Origin: Streptomyces griseiscabiei | GTDB taxonomy: Bacteria > Actinomycetota > Actinomycetes > Streptomycetales > Streptomycetaceae | Assembly: GCF_020010925.1 (NCBI RefSeq) | Contig: NZ_JAGJBZ010000001.1 | Location: 620,001 to 684,000 of the forward strand | Reading direction: 5' to 3' | DNA length: 64,000 nt | Program-made: the position numbers and the translations under genes | The notes under the pieces: model-generated | Told to the model about the DNA's origin: nothing | The model's input: the letters and a program-made list of their open reading frames with translations, nothing else | The model's database searches: none | In this document: positions 14,085 through 56,048 of the stretch, one piece after another | Layout of the letters: each line of letters begins with the position of its first letter | Numbering within the stretch: position 1 is the first letter of the stretch

Positions 14085-14093
14085 CTTCGTCTG

Positions 14094-14166
14094 CTCTCCC
14101 GACTGGACTCGAACCAGTAACCTGCCGGTTAACAGCCGGCTGCTCTGCCAATTGAGCTACGGAAGA
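14094..14166 (-). tRNA. tRNA-Asn (GTT), copy 1
   Basis: 73 nt. Acceptor TCTTCCG/CGGGAGA has one T-G wobble; the anticodon loop is CTGTTAA (GTT) and the discriminator G. The body is identical to copy 2, 6 nt away, but the acceptor stem differs (TCTTCCG rather than TCCTCCG) with partial compensation. Confidence 0.95.
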
Positions 14167-14172
14167 TCGAAG

Positions 14173-14245
14173 CTCCCCCGACTGGACTCGAACCAGTAAC
14201 CTGCCGGTTAACAGCCGGCTGCTCTGCCAATTGAGCTACGGAGGA
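14173..14245 (-). tRNA. tRNA-Asn (GTT), copy 2
   Basis: 73 nt. Acceptor TCCTCCG/CGGGGGA contains one T-G pair; the anticodon is GTT (14210-14212 complement) and the T-arm CTGGTTCGAGTCCAG. It is first in a tandem co-transcribed pair ending at the terminator 14064-14084. CCA is not encoded. Confidence 0.95.
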
Positions 14246-14431
14246 TTGCCTCGCCGCATCGAACGTACCTCCCTGGGTATTCGCCAGGGGGCGTGCGCTC
14301 GCTGCGACACATACATTAGCGCAAGCAGGGGGGTGCTCCGCCAATCGGTATCCCCCGCGCCCGTCGCCCCCCGCGGGGCGGCGCAAGGCTTCGAGGCAGA
14401 CGTACGCAGACGTAAGGGAAGGGTGGCCGCC

Positions 14432-38329: not shown

Positions 38330-40009
38330 ATGACCGACGGCCTCTCCGGGTCCGCGACCGCCGCGTACACCCGGATCTACGAGGAACAGCACCCGCGCCT
38401 GGTCGCGTACGCGCGCTCCCTCACCCGGAACTCCTGGACCGCCGAGGACCTCGTCGCCGAGGCGCACTTCCGCGTGTGGCGGCGGCTGTCCGGGGGGCAC
38501 GAGATCGACAACGTACCGGCGTATCTGATGACGACGGTGCGGCATCTGGCGACGACGGCGGGCACCACGGCCACACGCGAGACGCCCTTGGACCCGACGG
38601 CCCCCGAGCGGGCCGAGGCCGAGATCAGGGTGGTCGGACCCCGGTCGGCCGACGCCTCCGACCCTGCCGAACAGGTCTCCTCCGTCGATCTGTTGGTCCG
38701 GGTACTGGGCCAGCTGCCCGAGCGGTGGGTACAGGCGCTGTGGCTGGCCGAGGCGGAGGGGGAGCCGCTGGAGACCGTCGGACGGCGCATCGGCGCCAAG
38801 CAGGGCGCGACGGCCGTACTGCTGCACCGGGCGCGCGAAGGGATGCGCCAGGCGTTTCTGCGCGAGCAGCCCGGTGCGCCGATCGATCCGGCGTGCCAGG
38901 TGCGTTGGGGGCGCATGCCGGCGTATGTGCGCGGTACGGCGACCTCGCGCCAGTCCGCGCAGTTGCTCGGCCATGTGGACGCGTGCGACGACTGCCGGGC
39001 GCGGCTCTCGGTGCTGATGCGCACGAACGACCGGCTGCCCGCGCTCGTCGGTCCGGCACTGCTGGTGTTCGTGGTGGGCGGCGGCGGGGGCAAGCTGCTG
39101 CTCTCCCTCACGGCGGGCTCCACCGGTACGGCCGCCGTGCTCGGCGGGGCCGGTGGCGCCGGGGGCGTGGGAGGCGCCGGCGGGCAACTGCTGCACGCGG
39201 TGCGGCAGGCCGTGGGCGGCGGGGCGGGTGGCGTGAAGGTGCCCACCGTCGCCGCGGTCGGGGCGGCCACGGCTGCCGCCGCCGTCGTGGCCGGGATCGT
39301 GCTCGGGCCTCTCGACTCCGGTACGGCGCCCGCGCGACGCGAGCCGGTCGCCCAGGCGCCGGGGCCACGGATGCCCGAGGCGCGGTCGCCCGAGGTCGTG
39401 GAGCGGCGGAACGCGGTGACGGACGCGGTGGTCTCGCCCCGGGGAGCGGTGCCTTCCGACCCGGTGGTGGTGCTGGTGGGGGACGACGGCGGTAGGGGTG
39501 CGGGGGGTTCCGGGAGCGATGACGGTGACAGTGACAGTGGTGGCGGGGACCCGCAGCGGCCGGAGGTGACCGTCCCCGAGGGCCCGGACGCGGAGGTGCC
39601 CGGGACCGGGCCCGTGGTCGAGGAGCCCGCGGTGGAGGAACCCGGCGTCGAGGAGCCGGGTGAGGAGGAGCCCGGCGGCGGTTATCCGGGGGCGGAGCAG
39701 CCGCCGGCCGAGGAACCGGTGGCCGAGGAACCGGTGGCCGAGGGGCCCGGTTCCGGCGAGCCGTCCGTTCCCGAGGAGGGGCCCGCTGAGGCACCGCCAG
39801 TGGAGGAGGCACCGCCCGTGCAGGAGGAGCCGCCCGTGGAGGAGCCCCCGGTCGAAGCGCCGCCCGTCGAAGAGCCTCCGGCCGAAGCCCCGCCCGTCGA
39901 AGAGCCCCCCGCGCCTGGTCCGCCGGAGGTTGTCGAGCCTGCGCCGGAGGTGCCTGTTCCTCCTGTGGAGCCGCAACCGGAGGTGCCCGGGCCCGGGGGC
40001 GACTGCTGA
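38330..40009 (+). CDS. ECF sigma factor fused to a membrane-anchored anti-sigma-like tail
   Basis: 559 aa, of which only about 180 form a sigma factor: region 2 (YTRIYEEQHPRLVAYARSLT, DLVAEAHFRVWRRLSGGHEI) and region 4 (LPERWVQALWLAEAEGEPLE, RRIGAKQGATAVLLHRAREG). Residues 206-223 contain HVDACDDC, an HxxxCxxC zinc motif like those of anti-sigma (ZAS) domains. Then come glycine-rich hydrophobic segments (about 243-330), probably one or two membrane passes, and an acidic Pro/Glu-rich tail with repeated PPVEE/PVAEE units (about 425-559) predicted outside the cell. This suggests a tethered sigma factor released by a signal. Stop to next gene is 68 nt. Confidence 0.88.
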   Translation: MTDGLSGSATAAYTRIYEEQHPRLVAYARSLTRNSWTAEDLVAEAHFRVWRRLSGGHEIDNVPAYLMTTVRHLATTAGTTATRETPLDPTAPERAEAEIRVVGPRSADASDPAEQVSSVDLLVRVLGQLPERWVQALWLAEAEGEPLETVGRRIGAKQGATAVLLHRAREGMRQAFLREQPGAPIDPACQVRWGRMPAYVRGTATSRQSAQLLGHVDACDDCRARLSVLMRTNDRLPALVGPALLVFVVGGGGGKLLLSLTAGSTGTAAVLGGAGGAGGVGGAGGQLLHAVRQAVGGGAGGVKVPTVAAVGAATAAAAVVAGIVLGPLDSGTAPARREPVAQAPGPRMPEARSPEVVERRNAVTDAVVSPRGAVPSDPVVVLVGDDGGRGAGGSGSDDGDSDSGGGDPQRPEVTVPEGPDAEVPGTGPVVEEPAVEEPGVEEPGEEEPGGGYPGAEQPPAEEPVAEEPVAEGPGSGEPSVPEEGPAEAPPVEEAPPVQEEPPVEEPPVEAPPVEEPPAEAPPVEEPPAPGPPEVVEPAPEVPVPPVEPQPEVPGPGGDC

Positions 40010-49440: not shown

Positions 49441-49538
49441 TCGCGCAGTTCCCCGCGCCCCTGAAAAGCAGGGGCTGCGCCCCGTGCTTGTCAGGCCCGC
49501 AGGGGCCTGGTCTTTCAGGGGCGCGGGGAACTGCGCGA
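49441..49538. repeat. 26-bp perfect inverted repeat (dispersed Streptomyces-type element)
   Basis: The left arm 49441-49466 (TCGCGCAGTTCCCCGCGCCC + CTGAAA) is exactly complementary to the right arm 49513-49538. The 46-nt centre holds its own hairpin (AGGGGCTGCGCCCC). Reduced copies lie at 20098, 23702 and 26603. The right arm overlaps the last codons and stop of the SulP gene. Confidence 0.85.
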
Positions 49539-51413
49539 GAAGCCCCACTCGTCCGCGGTCGGCATCGGGCGGGTGTCGAGGTAGAACCACTCGGCGGTGG
49601 GCCCGGGGCCGGTCCCGGGACCGGGGCCGGGGCCGTGCGGCAGCGGGCCGGTGCCGCCGACCGCCGCCGTTCCGATCGTGGCGTAGTCCCACACCTCGGT
49701 CGACGCCGGCTCCGGCTCCCTCGACTCTGCCGGCTTCGTCGGCGCCGCCGGCTGCGTGAGGTCGGGCATCAGCAGTTCCACCCGCAGCCCGGCCCCCCGC
49801 TGCTGCGCCACGAACTCCTCGACCTGGTTGCGGCAGGCGTGGTCGAGGTGGGTGACACCGAGCAGGTCGAGGCGGATGCGCGGCTTGCCGGAGGCCGCCG
49901 CGTTCTCCAGCGCGTCTATCAGCTTCGGCAGCCGCAGGAACGTCGCGTTGCCCGCCATGACGACCTTCGCCGTGTCGTCCTCGATGTGCTGCCGGATGAC
50001 GGTCTGCGACATCCGCAGCGCGGCCAGCACGATGCCCGCGGCCAGCCCGAACAGCACCCCTTCGAGCAGCGCGGTCGCCGTGATGACCAGGGTGGTCAGC
50101 GTCATCACCGCGAACTCGCCCCGGTCCTGCCGCCACATCTTCGGGAACTCGTCCGGCGCGAAGAGTTTCCACCCGCTGTGCACGAGGACACCCGCGAGCA
50201 CCGAGATCGGGATCAGCGCCAGCACCTGCGGCAGCAGCAGCGCGAAGGCGAGCAGCCACAGGCCGTGCAGCGTACGGGAGAGGCGGGTCTTGGCCCCGGC
50301 CTGGACGTTGGCCGAGCTGCGCGCGACGACGGCGGTGATGGGCAGCGCGCCGAGCAGGCCGGCGATCGTGTTGCCCGCGCCCTGGGCGATCAGCTCGGTG
50401 TTGTAGCGGGTGCGCGGGCCGTTGTGCATCCGGTCCACGGCGGCGGCGGTGAACAGGCTCTCCGCCGAGGCGATCACGGTGAAGGTGAGGATCGCCGTGA
50501 TGATCCCGGCACTGGCCAGCCCGGACAGCTGCCCCGGCCCCGGCACGTCCACGGAGGCCAGCAGATTGCCGACCTGGAGCGTCTTCACCTCGACGCCCGG
50601 CAGCGCGGCGACCGCGATCCCGATGCCGACGGCCACCAGCGCGGCCGGGACCTTCTTGACCGGCCCGGGCATCTGCTTCCACAGGAAGCTGAGCACGATC
50701 GTGACGATGCCGAGCCCGGCCGCGATGAGCGCCTGCGGGTTCGTCACGGTGTCGGCGATCAGCCCGGGGACACCCGCCATGTTCTCCAGCGGGGTGCCGG
50801 GCGCCTTGGAGTCGGACATCGGGTAGAGCTGGCTGAACATCAGCGGCAGGCCGATGCCCGCCAGCATGCCCTGGACCACGGCGAGGGAGATCGCCTGGAA
50901 CATCCGGCCCAGCTTCACCAGGCCCAGCACGATCTGGAGGATGCCGGAGAAGAGGACGATCACGCCGAGCATCGCGACGCCGAACTCCATGACCGTCTCC
51001 GCGACGAGCGCCGCGAGACCGGCCGCCGGGCCGCTGACCTGGAGGGTGCTGCCGCGCACCGCGCCGACCACCAGGCCGCCGATCACCCCGGAGATGATGC
51101 CCAGTTCGGCGGGCACACCGGAGGCCACGGCCACACCGATACAGAGCGGCAGCGCGACCAGGAAGACGACGAGGGACGCGGTGATCTCGGTGCCGAAGTC
51201 GATGCGCCCGCCGCCGGAGGCGCCTGGGCGGGTGCCCTTGGCTCCGGGGGGCGGTGCCGATGCCGGTGCCGATGCCGGTGCTTCCTGCGGGAAGCCGGGG
51301 ATGTCGGGGGCGTATCGGGGGGCGGCGGGGAACTCGCTGAAGGCGGCGGGGGCGGGGGCGGGGGCGGGCCCGGGGGTGCCCTGCTCGCGCCGGCGGCCGT
51401 GGAGACCGCTCAT
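49515..51413 (-). CDS. SulP-family anion (bicarbonate/sulfate) transporter with STAS domain
   Basis: 632 aa. A Pro/Ala-rich cytoplasmic N-terminus (1-67) precedes 12-14 helices: ASLVVFLVALPLCIGVAVAS, GSTLQVSGPAAGLAALVAET, then ASAESLFTAAAVDRMHNGPR and LPITAVVARSSANVQAGAKT. A STAS domain follows (about 480-565, FLRLPKLIDALENAAASGKP). The tail after it is low-complexity (GPLPHGPGPGPGTGPGP). The last residues (GFSRSSPRP) and the stop are encoded by the dispersed repeat at 49441-49538. Start overlaps the carbonic anhydrase stop (ATGA), so bicarbonate is the likeliest substrate. Confidence 0.9.
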   Translation of the reverse strand: MSGLHGRRREQGTPGPAPAPAPAAFSEFPAAPRYAPDIPGFPQEAPASAPASAPPPGAKGTRPGASGGGRIDFGTEITASLVVFLVALPLCIGVAVASGVPAELGIISGVIGGLVVGAVRGSTLQVSGPAAGLAALVAETVMEFGVAMLGVIVLFSGILQIVLGLVKLGRMFQAISLAVVQGMLAGIGLPLMFSQLYPMSDSKAPGTPLENMAGVPGLIADTVTNPQALIAAGLGIVTIVLSFLWKQMPGPVKKVPAALVAVGIGIAVAALPGVEVKTLQVGNLLASVDVPGPGQLSGLASAGIITAILTFTVIASAESLFTAAAVDRMHNGPRTRYNTELIAQGAGNTIAGLLGALPITAVVARSSANVQAGAKTRLSRTLHGLWLLAFALLLPQVLALIPISVLAGVLVHSGWKLFAPDEFPKMWRQDRGEFAVMTLTTLVITATALLEGVLFGLAAGIVLAALRMSQTVIRQHIEDDTAKVVMAGNATFLRLPKLIDALENAAASGKPRIRLDLLGVTHLDHACRNQVEEFVAQQRGAGLRVELLMPDLTQPAAPTKPAESREPEPASTEVWDYATIGTAAVGGTGPLPHGPGPGPGTGPGPTAEWFYLDTRPMPTADEWGFSRSSPRP

Positions 51414-52051
51414 GAGCCGTGCACCTGGAAGCCGCCGTCCGCGTCCAGTTCATGGATCTTGCCGGTGTCGATCTCGTAGTACCAGCCGTGCAACCGCAGC
51501 CGTCCTGAGTCGAGTTGCTGCCGGGCGACCGGGTACTCGCGCAGGACCGCGAGCTGGTTGCGGATGTTGAGCTGGACGACCTCGCGCAGGGCGGGGTCCT
51601 CGGACTGCTCGGTGTCCCGGGCGGTGCCCGTGTCCCCGAGGACCGGTTCGAGCGCGGGGCGGGCGTAGTCGAGCCAGGCGTCCACCCTGGGCAGTCCGGA
51701 CAGGTCGGCGCCGTACTTCAGCGCCCCCATCGCACCGCAGTGGGAATGGCCACACACCACGAGGTCCTGAACGCCGAGCACCTCCAGCGCGTACTCGATG
51801 GTGGCGGCCTCACCGGAGGCGGCCCCCTGCGCGTCATGTGCGTCGTGCGGGGGCACGATGTTGCCCGCATTCCGTAGCTCGAATATCTCGCCGGGCCGCG
51901 CCCCGGTGATCAGGGCGGGAATCACCCGCGAGTCCGAGCAGGTAATGAACAACGCCTCGGGAAATTGCCCGACGGCGAGTTTCCGGTATTCGTCACTCTC
52001 GAAGTCGACCCGCCGCTTGAACGACCGGGCGCGATCCAGCAACGCCTTCAC
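51410..52051 (-). CDS. Beta-class carbonic anhydrase
   Basis: 213 aa. Zinc ligands and active-site dyad are in ALFITCSDSRVIPALITGAR (Cys; Asp-Arg dyad) and VCGHSHCGAMGALKYGADLS (His, Cys). IFELRNAGNIVPPHDAHD completes the pocket. It interconverts CO2 and bicarbonate. It is followed with a 4-nt overlap by the SulP transporter gene, a pairing known for bicarbonate uptake or carbon supply. Promoter region 52052-52344 precedes it. Confidence 0.95.
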   Translation of the reverse strand: MKALLDRARSFKRRVDFESDEYRKLAVGQFPEALFITCSDSRVIPALITGARPGEIFELRNAGNIVPPHDAHDAQGAASGEAATIEYALEVLGVQDLVVCGHSHCGAMGALKYGADLSGLPRVDAWLDYARPALEPVLGDTGTARDTEQSEDPALREVVQLNIRNQLAVLREYPVARQQLDSGRLRLHGWYYEIDTGKIHELDADGGFQVHGS

Positions 52052-52344
52052 CGTGCCTCCCTGAACTGGTTACGACCCGTTCTGACCTGCTCTTACGACC
52101 GTAGGGGGCCGATGACCAGAGGAAGGTTAAGCGAACACTAAAACGCCGCCAGATTTTCCACAGATTTCAGCCAGTCCCGCTTCCACGCAGGTCCGGCGGG
52201 CTCCGGCGACCGAATACAAGCGGTTTCTGAGGGTCATTTCACAATGCTTCGGATTCCCTGCGCGTTCTTGTTCGCGGTCTTGTAGCGTGGCGCCCCACAG
52301 CACGGGTCTCGTGTTGTCCCGACTTTCTGGAGAGACAGGCGGCC

Positions 52345-54402
52345 ATGGGCGTACGAGTGCTGCTCATCGAGGACGACGAGACGATCGCCGAACCGCTCGC
52401 CGACGGGCTGCGGCACTTCGGCCTGACGGTCCACCATGTGGCCACCGGCACGGACGGGTTGAGAGGTCCGCACGGCGATGTCGTCCTGCTGGACCTCGGT
52501 CTGCCCGACATGGACGGCATCGACGTCTGCCGCGGCATCCGCCGGACCTCCGACGTCCCCATCATCATCCTCAGCGCACGCGGCGAGGAGGCCGACCGCG
52601 TCCTGGGCCTCGAACTCGGCGCCGACGACTACCTGGCGAAACCGTTCAGCATCCGCGAACTGGTCGCCCGTATACGCGCGGTGTCGCGACGCCATCTGCG
52701 ACCGGGGGCCGGCGGGGGCGGGGTCACGGCCTCGGGCGATGTGGTGGCCGGGGTCGTGGTGGCCGAGGCGGGGGTCGGGAGGGCGGCCGTGGGGGGTGGT
52801 GTCGGTTTCGACGCCGGTGCGGATCTCGACGGCGGGGTCGGTGCACGTGCCGGTGCAAGTGCCTTTGCCGGTACGGGCGTTGGGGTCGGTGTCGGTCCGG
52901 GCCGCCTGGCCGGGGGTGGTTTCCGGGGTGGGAACGACTTCACGGAGGCCGGCGGCTTCGGGGCCGCCGGGAGCGACTTCGGGGCCGGGGGCTCGCGCTA
53001 CGACGGAGACGCGGGGGTGGGTGCCGGTGCCGGTGGGGACATGGGTGCCGGTGAGGGTGCGGGTGCGGGAGCCGGTTCGGGTTCCCATGCTGGAACGGGG
53101 TCGCGCGCGGGTCGGGGGCGGGGCGGGGGCGCCAGGCGCAGGAGCCGGGGCGTCCCCGACGCCGGAGACGTAGGGCGCGGGAGCGGTGTCGGTGGTGACG
53201 GTGGCGCGGGCGCGGGCCATGGCGTCCGGGACACCGGCGGTCCTGAGACCGGCTTCGGCGACGGAGACTCCGGCCGCCGTGGGACCGGCCCCGGCTTCGG
53301 CCGGGACACCGGCGGTCCTGGGACCGGTTTCGGCTCCGGCGTGGGGCCCGGCGGGTCCGAGTACGACTGGTCCGCCGGTAACGAGGGGCTGAGCGAGGGG
53401 ACTTCGGCCCGCGAGACGTCGGCCCAGGACGCACCGGGCTTCGGCACCTCGGCCCACGACGGTCCGGGCCACGACTCATCAGCCTTCGGCACCCGACCGC
53501 CGGGAACCCCGTCGCGCGGTGCGCCCTTCGGCGGGACCCCCGCGCACGGCACTGCCGCCGTCCCCGGCACCCCGGTCTTCGGCGAGGCCTTCGACAACCC
53601 GCCGTTCGGGAACCCGGAGTACGGGAACCCGGGGTTCGGCGGCGGCGAGGGCTCGTTCGGCGGCGCTCGGCCCGGGTTCGACGGCGGTCAGGGCGCGTTC
53701 GGCGGCGCACCCGCGCAGGGCACGCCCCCGCACGGTTCGCCGATGTACGGCACCCCGGCCCACGGCACGCCCGCGTACGGCACCCCGCCGCACGGCTCCC
53801 CCGCGTACGGAAGCCAGGGGTACGGAGGGCAGGCGTACGGCACTCCGGCGCACGGCAGCCCGGTGTACGAGCCCCCGGTCTACGAGCCGCCCATGTACGA
53901 GCAGGCCCCGCCCGAAACCCGGGACGCCTCCGGTACGGCCGCGGCCGACGACGGTTCCGCCGCGCCGCCGCCCGGCCCGCTGGTCGTGGACCGGCGGACC
54001 CGGCAGGTGTGGGTGGGCGAGGTGCCGGTCGCGCTGACGCCGAAGGAGTTCGAACTGCTGGCGCTGCTCACGGAGGACCCCGGCGCCGTCTACTCCCGGC
54101 AGCAGATCCTCAACCGTGTCTGGGACGAGCACTACCAGGGCCCGACCAAGACCCTGGACGTCCATGTCGCCACACTGCGCCGCAAGTTGGGTGATCCGGC
54201 GTGGATCCAGACCCTGCGCGGAGTCGGCTTCCGGCTGGCGGTACGCACCCCCGGCCGGGCACCGGGACCGGCACCGGGCCAGAACCGGGATCAGGGTCAG
54301 GAGCAGGAGCAGGGTCGGCCCGCCGGGCACGGGCGGGGGCAGGGCACGGGCCTCGGCCGGGGATCCGGCAGGCATCGCACCCGTGAGGCCAGGGCGTCAT
54401 GA
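52345..54402 (+). CDS. OmpR-type response regulator with about 425-residue low-complexity linker
   Basis: 685 aa instead of about 225-240. The receiver domain (1-118) is normal: RVLLIEDDETIAEPLADGLR, phosphoacceptor D50 in VVLLDLGLPDMDGID, K99 in ADDYLAKPFS. The winged helix (about 545-635) is also normal: ALTPKEFELLALLTEDPGAV, LDVHVATLRRKLGD, LRGVGFRLAV. Between them lie a Gly/Val/Ala/Asp-rich part (119-400) and a Gly/Pro/Tyr/His-rich part (about 440-535) with repeated GTPAHG/GTPAYG units and YEPPVYEPPMYE. The tail (636-685) is also Gly/Arg-rich. It overlaps the histidine kinase gene by 4 nt. Confidence 0.9.
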   Translation: MGVRVLLIEDDETIAEPLADGLRHFGLTVHHVATGTDGLRGPHGDVVLLDLGLPDMDGIDVCRGIRRTSDVPIIILSARGEEADRVLGLELGADDYLAKPFSIRELVARIRAVSRRHLRPGAGGGGVTASGDVVAGVVVAEAGVGRAAVGGGVGFDAGADLDGGVGARAGASAFAGTGVGVGVGPGRLAGGGFRGGNDFTEAGGFGAAGSDFGAGGSRYDGDAGVGAGAGGDMGAGEGAGAGAGSGSHAGTGSRAGRGRGGGARRRSRGVPDAGDVGRGSGVGGDGGAGAGHGVRDTGGPETGFGDGDSGRRGTGPGFGRDTGGPGTGFGSGVGPGGSEYDWSAGNEGLSEGTSARETSAQDAPGFGTSAHDGPGHDSSAFGTRPPGTPSRGAPFGGTPAHGTAAVPGTPVFGEAFDNPPFGNPEYGNPGFGGGEGSFGGARPGFDGGQGAFGGAPAQGTPPHGSPMYGTPAHGTPAYGTPPHGSPAYGSQGYGGQAYGTPAHGSPVYEPPVYEPPMYEQAPPETRDASGTAAADDGSAAPPPGPLVVDRRTRQVWVGEVPVALTPKEFELLALLTEDPGAVYSRQQILNRVWDEHYQGPTKTLDVHVATLRRKLGDPAWIQTLRGVGFRLAVRTPGRAPGPAPGQNRDQGQEQEQGRPAGHGRGQGTGLGRGSGRHRTREARAS

Positions 54403-56048
54403 CCCGACGCCTGCTGCTGAGCTACCTCAGCCTCGCCGCCCTGGTCCTGCTCGGCCTGGAGATCCCGCTGGGCTTCGTCTACTCGCGGGCCGAACGCGAG
54501 CGGATCGTCAACTCCGCCAACGACGAGGCCGAGTCGGTGGCCGCGTACGCGGCGCTGTCCCTCGCCGCCGGACGCCGGGACGAACTCGTCGAACGCGCCC
54601 GGCACTGCGCCGAGCGCATCGGCGGGAAGGTCGTCATCGTCGACGCGGACGGGAAGCTGCTGGCCTCCTCCCACTCCCTGTCCGCCGACGAGGAGGAGAC
54701 CCTGTCGTCCCAGCCCGAGATCTCCGCCGCGCTCCGGGGCAGCGCCACCACGGACGTACGGACGACGACGACCGGCGGGGTGCACTACCTGTCCGTGGCC
54801 GCTCCGGTCGGCCACGCCACGACCGACACGGGCACGGGCACGGGGACGGGGACGGGGACGGGGACAGGTTCTGGCTCGGGCTCGGGCTCGGGCTCGATCA
54901 CAGCCGCACGTACGACCACATCCACCGCCACCGCCACAGCCACCGCCACATCCACAACCGCGCGCCCGGCCTCGGCCTCGGCCGCGTCGGCGCAGGGTGC
55001 CGTGCGCGTCACCCTCCCCACGACCATGGTGCACGCCCGCGTGTTCGCGGTCTGGCTGCTGCTCGCGCTGGCCGGGCTCGCGGTGCTCACCGGGGTCGCG
55101 GCGGTGGCGTTCGCGTTCGCGCGCTGGACGGGGCGTCCCATCCGGCAGTTGGAGGAGGCGACGCACCGGCTGGCCGAGGGGGGTGCGGCCACCAGCGTGG
55201 TGGTCACCTCGGGCCCGCCGGAGGTACGGAGTCTCGCGACGGCCTTCAACACGACCGCCGCCCGCCTCGAACACCTGCTGGCCTCCCAGCGGGCCTTCGC
55301 CGGTGAGGCCTCGCACCAGCTGAAGACCCCGCTGGCGGCACTGCGGCTCCGGCTGGAGAACCTGGAGCCGGACATCGCCCGGCGCGCCCGGCCCAGCCTC
55401 GACGCCGCCGTCACCGAGACGGACCGGCTGGCCCGGATGGTCGAGGGGCTGCTGGCGATGGCCCGGCTGGAGGAGGCGGCGGCCATCCCCGCCCAGGTCG
55501 ATCTGGGCGGCGTCTGCGCGGAACGGCACCGTACGTGGGGGCCGTTGTTCGAACGCGAGGGGGTCTCGCTGGTCCTCTTCGCCGGTGCGGTCGGCCCGGT
55601 GACGGCCGTCCCCGGAGCCGTGGAGCAGATCCTCGACAACCTGCTCTCCAACGCGCTGCGCGCCTCGCCCGCGCACAGCACGGTCACCATGGAGCTACGG
55701 CTCCTCGTGCCCGCCCGGCGGGCGCTGCGCGACGCCCGGCCCAGCTGGGTCGACCTCCATGTCACCGACGAGGGGCCCGGGATGACGCCCGAGCAGCGCG
55801 CCCGCGCGTTCGACCGCTTCTGGCGCGCCCCCGGCGCGCCCAAGGGCGGCACCGGTCTCGGTCTCTCCCTCGTACAGCGTCTGGCGCATGCGAGCGGCGG
55901 GGACGTGACACTGCGGGAGGCGGCGACGGGCGGGCTGGACGCCGTGGTGCGTCTTCCGTCGGCGGAGCCGCCGGTTCCGCCGCCCGGCCACGGGTTCGGA
56001 GGCAGGCCGGGGCAGCGACGTCGTGAGGCTCCACCGCTGCCGGCCTGA
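54399..56048 (+). CDS. Sensor histidine kinase, cognate of the RR
   Basis: 549 aa. TM1 (4-26), extracytoplasmic sensor domain (about 27-205), TM2 (near 215-240), HAMP (about 241-295), HisKA with FAGEASHQLKTPLAALRLRL and catalytic ATPase with EQILDNLLSNALRASP (N box), DEGPGM (G1) and GGTGLGLSLVQRLA (G2). The sensor loop holds a repeat tract (about 144-190: GTGTGTGTGTGTGSGSGSGS, then TATATATS) encoded by in-frame hexanucleotides (ACGGGG, GGCTCG). Length changes there keep frame, so they would only lengthen or shorten the extracellular part. Overlap ATGA with the RR gene. Confidence 0.93.
   Translation: MTRRLLLSYLSLAALVLLGLEIPLGFVYSRAERERIVNSANDEAESVAAYAALSLAAGRRDELVERARHCAERIGGKVVIVDADGKLLASSHSLSADEEETLSSQPEISAALRGSATTDVRTTTTGGVHYLSVAAPVGHATTDTGTGTGTGTGTGTGSGSGSGSGSITAARTTTSTATATATATSTTARPASASAASAQGAVRVTLPTTMVHARVFAVWLLLALAGLAVLTGVAAVAFAFARWTGRPIRQLEEATHRLAEGGAATSVVVTSGPPEVRSLATAFNTTAARLEHLLASQRAFAGEASHQLKTPLAALRLRLENLEPDIARRARPSLDAAVTETDRLARMVEGLLAMARLEEAAAIPAQVDLGGVCAERHRTWGPLFEREGVSLVLFAGAVGPVTAVPGAVEQILDNLLSNALRASPAHSTVTMELRLLVPARRALRDARPSWVDLHVTDEGPGMTPEQRARAFDRFWRAPGAPKGGTGLGLSLVQRLAHASGGDVTLREAATGGLDAVVRLPSAEPPVPPPGHGFGGRPGQRRREAPPLPA

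Follow-up and report, generated by a model that had tools for sequence, protein, structure and literature searches.

An OmpR-type response regulator of Streptomyces griseiscabiei with a long, predicted disordered linker of variable length among relatives

Response regulators of the OmpR/PhoB family, among them RegX3, PrrA, MtrA and the VanR of S. coelicolor, share a receiver with a phospho-acceptor Asp, a winged helix and a paired kinase. Their two domains are joined by linkers quoted as 5-21 residues in an excerpt of the VanR structure paper (PMC8329863). The regulator analyzed here, encoded in a 64,000-nucleotide stretch of the S. griseiscabiei genome (the window), has all the common parts, but its linker comprises about 425 residues, is predicted to be disordered and carries repeats and conserved islands. 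We take a short linker to be a usual property of the family and not its definition, and class the protein as a variant member. Excerpts of the open-licence literature yielded, among the matches listed, neither a report of an OmpR-type regulator whose linker is long and disordered nor one of a regulator/kinase pair linked to a carbonic anhydrase.

The regulator protein has 82 matches across its own genome. When a receiver match and a winged-helix match within 3 kb of each other were paired, 28 other pairs were obtained, with linkers of 15-46 residues (median 20) against 433 for the window, a measure that takes in the last turn of the receiver; 23 other receiver matches had no winged-helix partner and two winged-helix matches had no receiver.

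The regulator, its kinase and their neighborhood

The gene (52345..54402; all features lie on the forward strand unless stated otherwise) was assigned to an OmpR-type response regulator of 685 aa from its open reading frame and Pfam domains. The receiver (residues 5-111; 52357..52677) was delimited by Pfam PF00072 (Response_reg, E 1.4e-22, above the curated cut-off), by alignment and by AlphaFold2, which modeled it with confidence (block pLDDT 87-97); D10, D11, D50 and K99 are invariant in 54 aligned proteins and S77 is present in at least 90% of them. The winged-helix DNA-binding domain (residues 561-631; 54025..54237) was recognized by Pfam PF00486 (Trans_reg_C, E 4.6e-25, 87.9 bits vs a cut-off of 26.2) and by AlphaFold2, and nearly all of the 176 residues with a pLDDT of at least 90 fall inside the two domains, judging from block means. 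In the same model, the receiver ends with a helix (103-118) and the DNA-binding part opens with a strand (546-549), with no secondary structure and block pLDDT values of 33-55 in residues 121-540. As nothing structured lies between these bounds, the linker amounts to about 425 residues (119-545; 52699..53979, delimited by AlphaFold2, composition and repeats). The original prediction of two intact domains joined by a tract of this length is borne out, and the disorder that it had ascribed to the tract is likewise predicted by AlphaFold2. The C-terminal tail, also said to be of low complexity, is so by composition and by the model (residues 634-685, 52 residues; 54244..54399). None of the NCBIfam named regulators (CreB, CseB, MtrA, PhoB and others) reached its cut-off among the best 25 of 82 models, CreB scoring highest (186.8 bits vs 273), and a specific NCBIfam name was therefore dropped.

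The regulator and kinase open reading frames share 4 nt, as had been noted in arguing against a chance fusion. At 71% GC, where an antisense ORF of 412 aa overlaps the regulator gene, an open frame by itself is weak evidence; stronger evidence comes from the relatives, which preserve the reading frame, and the argument stands.

In the sensor loop of the cognate histidine kinase (54399..56048; HAMP, HisKA and HATPase_c by Pfam), residues 139-198 (TGTGTG...SGSG; 54813..54992) form a low-complexity insert, identified from the distance to the phospho-His motif across the 44 loci described below. Inserts of 59-88 residues, rich in Thr, Ala, Gly and Ser, occur in six of these loci, all from the window's clade; the insert was read by motif in 21 of the 44 kinases, and 38 were judged by that distance to be without it (247-261 vs 303-332 residues). 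The kinases of a second long-linker group (L145, L155) have none. Lying between two hydrophobic segments, the insert is apparently outside the cell, if the usual topology applies, and would thus be unable to touch the linker.

The divergent neighbor encodes a carbonic anhydrase (51410..52051, reverse strand; PF00484), and a SulP-family transporter gene lies at 49515..51413 (reverse strand; PF00916). A role in bicarbonate/CO2 supply may be surmised from the neighboring genes alone. The SulP N-termini at this locus (L134-L176, L009) are often repeat-rich, with 14-162 residues in the 28 loci read, and a PhoX-type gene (PF05787; 56104-57378) is found directly 3' of the kinase gene.

Immediately 5' of the regulator gene lies GGAGAGACAGG, which is similar in many relatives. 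Upstream alignment also brought out GAAGGTTAAGCGAACACTA (52122..52140) between the divergent genes, whose core AAGG[TC]TA[AG] is found in 42 of the 44 upstream regions (330 bp each), and a second conserved element, TTGTAGCGTG (52280..52289), about 55 bp 5' of the regulator start, with the pattern TTGTA.[CG]GTG in 35 of the 44. GAAGGTTAAGCGAACACTA may be the operator of the regulator or a piece of the carbonic anhydrase promoter. Phosphorylation-dependent dimerization and direct-repeat DNA binding are traits of the family, and in this candidate element TTAA and CTAA start 11 bp apart. At up to two mismatches, the GAAGGTTARNSGAACNCTA pattern has a single copy in the 10.6-Mb genome, and a reversed control also has one.

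Linker length and divergence among relatives

A close receiver match (E<=1e-56) was present in 43 of 295 sampled same-genus genomes, the window's own included, at 44 places. The full regulator was obtained from 42 fetched regions, L164 running off its contig, and these together with L009 (S. acidiscabies) and the window make up the 44 loci parsed. A wider search had given 80 loci, many in other phyla, from which L009, L010, L011 and L058 were examined and L009 alone was used later; the closest solved sequence relatives of this short-linker orthologue are RegX3 (2oqr) and PrrA (1ys6). Since 41 of the 44 regulators have a carbonic-anhydrase motif upstream and 41 of 44 keep the 4-nt kinase overlap, most loci are orthologues by position too. 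Their linkers measure 20-433 residues (median 66), that of the window being the longest; 31 are below 100 residues, six fall between 100 and 149, and seven reach at least 150. The short-linker Streptomyces orthologues, such as L009, have mostly the same neighbors, upstream elements and kinase overlap as the window, and receivers 78-94% identical to its own, but differ in having linkers that measure 20-138 residues (37 of 44 loci) and in the absence of the kinase insert (38 of 44). Long linkers are also found in two single-contig genomes (G228 and G254) and in NCBI proteins from S. europaeiscabiei (325 residues), S. scabiei (four entries, 224-259) and S. ipomoeae (202). In Streptomyces sp. MB09-02B (P0035), the orthologue's linker leads into other sequence and not into a winged helix, which suggests a rearrangement or insertion within the linker.

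Domain parsing retained 159 of 265 proteins, the remainder having failed the domain motifs, and a quick tree was built from the receiver plus the DNA-binding domain (136 rows after duplicate removal, 199 columns). In the window's clade (23 rows) the domains are 96-100% identical and the linkers range from 138 to 433 residues. Between the window protein and P0012, domain identity is 99.5% and the linkers measure 433 and 292 residues, respectively, and proteins with identical 199-aa domains have linkers of, for instance, 224, 227, 253, 259, 261 and 312 residues in one set and 252, 321 and 323 in another. The domains are thus intact and strongly conserved, and linker length is hypervariable among close relatives. 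Linkers of at least 150 residues need six changes on the quick tree, and its starred branches force at least two; owing to the close similarity of the domains, most inner branches have poor support. The second group lengthened separately, with repeats other than those of the window's clade, which has GTPAHG and YEPP units; ESF units occur elsewhere (0 of 23 long clade linkers vs 17 of 135 others).

For six loci of the clade, domain dN was 0.000-0.012 and the dN of alignable linker 0.125-0.437, with linker dS 3.5-6 times domain dS. As protein-guided dN/dS values exaggerate constraint in stretches of uncertain alignment, and the linker values are partly alignment error, nucleotide alignments served for a further count of substitutions. 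Codon position 3 had the largest linker count in 15 of 15 aligned pairs from the six loci (pairs sharing genomes); between the window and L135, for example, substitutions at the three positions numbered 61, 64 and 104 in the linker and 6, 9 and 33 in the domains. The third-position share in the linker (about 42-58%) lies far under the 65% or more of the domains, and in local nucleotide alignments some gaps are not multiples of 3 and some matches are out of register. From the third-position excess, the linker is most likely translated in its present frame and weakly constrained.

Composition, repeats and islands of the linker

The first part of the linker (52699..53358), distinguished by composition and codon statistics, is Gly/Ala/Val-rich with repeats of 6, 12 and 39 bp. 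Its description as Gly/Val/Asp-rich was roughly right for residues 118-340 (G 39%, V 8.5%, D 7%), but Ala (14%) and Arg (8%) are as frequent. GC at codon position 3 is lowered to 0.77 in residues 126-340, where GGT accounts for 29 of 83 Gly codons. Residues 341-545 contain 22% G, 17% P and 13% A and, as had been predicted, repeated G(T/S)P(A/P)(H/Y)G units (53719..53856; 15/30-bp DNA repeats), of which seven were counted, against 0.005 on average and never more than one when the sequence was shuffled 5000 times; the further sequence named with them, YEPPVYEPPMYE, was found to begin at residue 508. With the coding pattern tried for GTPAHG-type units, this gene is the sole match in the genome at up to one mismatch. 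Very similar GTPAHG/GSPAHG units occur in the Streptomyces proteins P0062 and P0077 (ATP-binding kinase-like) and P0079 (DUF3152), which differ from the window protein in having other domains and repeats at other positions; we infer convergence. Tandem repeats cover 482 bp of the regulator gene, more than in each of 200 control bins of 2 kb sampled from 400 kb of this genome, which average 26 bp and peak at 368 bp.

Two islands stand out among the clade linkers: YDWSA (residues 340-344; 53362..53376) and, near the DNA-binding domain, YEPPVYEPPMYEQAPPETR (residues 508-526; 53866..53922). Y340, D341 and W342, as well as P511, Y513, P515, P516, Y518, E519, Q520, P522 and R526, are present in all 22 distinct clade linkers starting with VSRRH, a count that excludes P0013, which belongs to the clade on the tree but starts differently. 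A related motif, YDWTAAR, forms the extreme C-terminus of eight proteins from the S. acidiscabies group, a starred clade with short linkers. A rare motif at two places in one family would look like a short linear motif, although this pattern was noticed post hoc.

Regarding composition, the 44 pooled linkers (4282 residues, leaving out 8 residues at the receiver end) contain one Lys, no Cys and 6.4% Tyr+Phe, and the window linker contains neither Lys nor Cys and 6.9% Tyr+Phe. The SulP N-termini offered a comparison at the 28 of 44 loci where both were readable, the window being left out as the script did not detect its SulP N-terminus. Lys made up 1 of 3036 linker residues vs 96 of 1933 SulP residues (5.0%), and Tyr+Phe numbered 197 in the same linkers vs 40 in the SulP N-termini (2.1%). 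Cytosolic tails near a membrane tend to be positive. SulP tails adjoin the membrane, which biases them as a Lys control, and related residues are not independent, so that the difference in aromatics carries more weight than that in Lys, which is suggestive. Relative to a base-composition null, itself a weak one, Tyr+Phe was enriched 3.3-fold in the window, 2.9-fold in five clade loci, 1.8-fold in two loci of the second group and 3.1-fold in 36 loci with linkers below 120 residues; a set of IDR-like controls includes wrong-frame ORFs and serves as a rough guide only. Alignment of orthologues had been proposed as a check on conservation of the linker: its composition, in the form of aromatic enrichment, is kept, but its length is not.

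Condensate-forming aromatic low-complexity regions are rich in aromatics, have Gly/Ser/Pro spacers and are free of Lys. The window linker resembles them in all three respects but differs in having no even aromatic spacing. Tyr and Phe lean to even spacing in 21 of 32 long linkers from related rows, four of them significantly so (p<0.05 against shuffles), and one is more clustered (p>0.95), although tandem repeats alone would yield some evenness. In the window they lean to clustering (p 0.90, shuffles), and even spacing was dropped for this protein.

Explanations for the long linker

We regard it as probable that this is an ordinary OmpR-type regulator, controlled by phosphorylation, whose linker became a long, disordered, length-tolerant tether with repeat turnover and loose compositional control. 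Length changes would stem from the turnover of tandem GC-rich repeats. Phosphorylation would still pair the receivers, the tether would leave the DNA-binding domains almost independent in finding their sites, the islands might act as docking motifs for some partner or for the protein itself, and a loose compositional rule would keep the tether unfolded and soluble. In an ideal-chain estimate with an assumed persistence length of 0.4 nm, the rms distance between the ends comes to about 11 nm (33 bp) for 433 residues and 2.3 nm for 20, with effective concentrations of about 0.4 and 43 mM, respectively. A tether this long should decouple the DNA-binding domains from the geometry of the receivers and make any inhibitory contact of the one with the other weaker.

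That the expansion was purely neutral, with a junction tolerating any non-folding insert, slippage filling it and the linker merely connecting, would fit the low-complexity growth that the locus also shows in the sensor loop of its kinase and in the SulP N-terminus, as well as the short repeats and atypical third positions of the first linker part. It fits poorly with islands kept in 22 of 22 distinct linkers, with the near absence of Lys and Cys, with a Tyr/Phe enrichment common to short and long linkers and with the third-position excess of substitutions, and we consider it unlikely. The growth at the two other places suggests that repeat turnover is the raw material and that selection filters what stays. 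It seems equally improbable that selection maintains the linker for a function of its own, namely as a lysine-free aromatic disordered tether bearing position-tolerant recognition motifs that recruit a partner or self-associate, even though a YDW[S/T]A motif inside the linker of the long-linker clade and at the extreme C-terminus in the short-linker clade matches what a short linear motif should show. If true, the regulator would serve as a platform for recruitment, with the number of repeats setting its reach.

The idea put forward in the original prediction, that the tract clusters the regulator into condensates or bridges distant DNA sites, can be framed as a sticker-and-spacer model, in which an aromatic, Gly/Pro/Ser-rich and lysine-free tract concentrates the regulator at its promoter or bridges sites; it appears distinctly unlikely. 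In its favor are the aromatic content and the lack of Lys and Cys in the window linker, the broadly similar composition at which two groups with different repeats have arrived, and the even lean of Tyr/Phe in many long linkers. Condensates and DNA bridging, though conceivable, are not supported: linker length is not conserved (20-433, with most loci below 100 residues), the window's aromatics are uneven and the operator-like site is single-copy in the genome, and the low-complexity growth in the kinase and SulP proteins points first to repeat turnover. Bridging between several sites was dropped because of the single copy, there being no second site at up to two mismatches, and the 33-bp span of the ideal chain also speaks against it. 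A misassembly, a frameshift or a miscalled gene, which would go with the weak codon-position contrast in the first linker part and the overlapping antisense ORF, is extremely improbable: the window's contig measures 4.0 Mb, and long linkers recur in other genomes, two of them single-contig, and in named NCBI records. This recurrence speaks against an artifact for the family, a reading that was dropped, and uniformly short orthologues alongside an assembly error, the combination named as able to refute the prediction, are not what was found.

Domains 96-100% identical with linkers of 138-433 residues, together with linkers of 20-119 in more distant orthologues, constitute a natural test series. 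It is suited to asking how far mechanical coupling between receiver dimerization and DNA binding extends, and also whether bacterial disordered regions evolve by rules of composition rather than of sequence.

Elsewhere in the window, a tandem-repeat tract with units of 15, 18 and 30 bp is found at 39610-39911, in the bin that ranks second in the window for repeat DNA (346 bp), and positions 14093-14246 hold two tandem copies with 97% matches and a 79-bp period that correspond to a putative tRNA gene, perhaps for asparagine.
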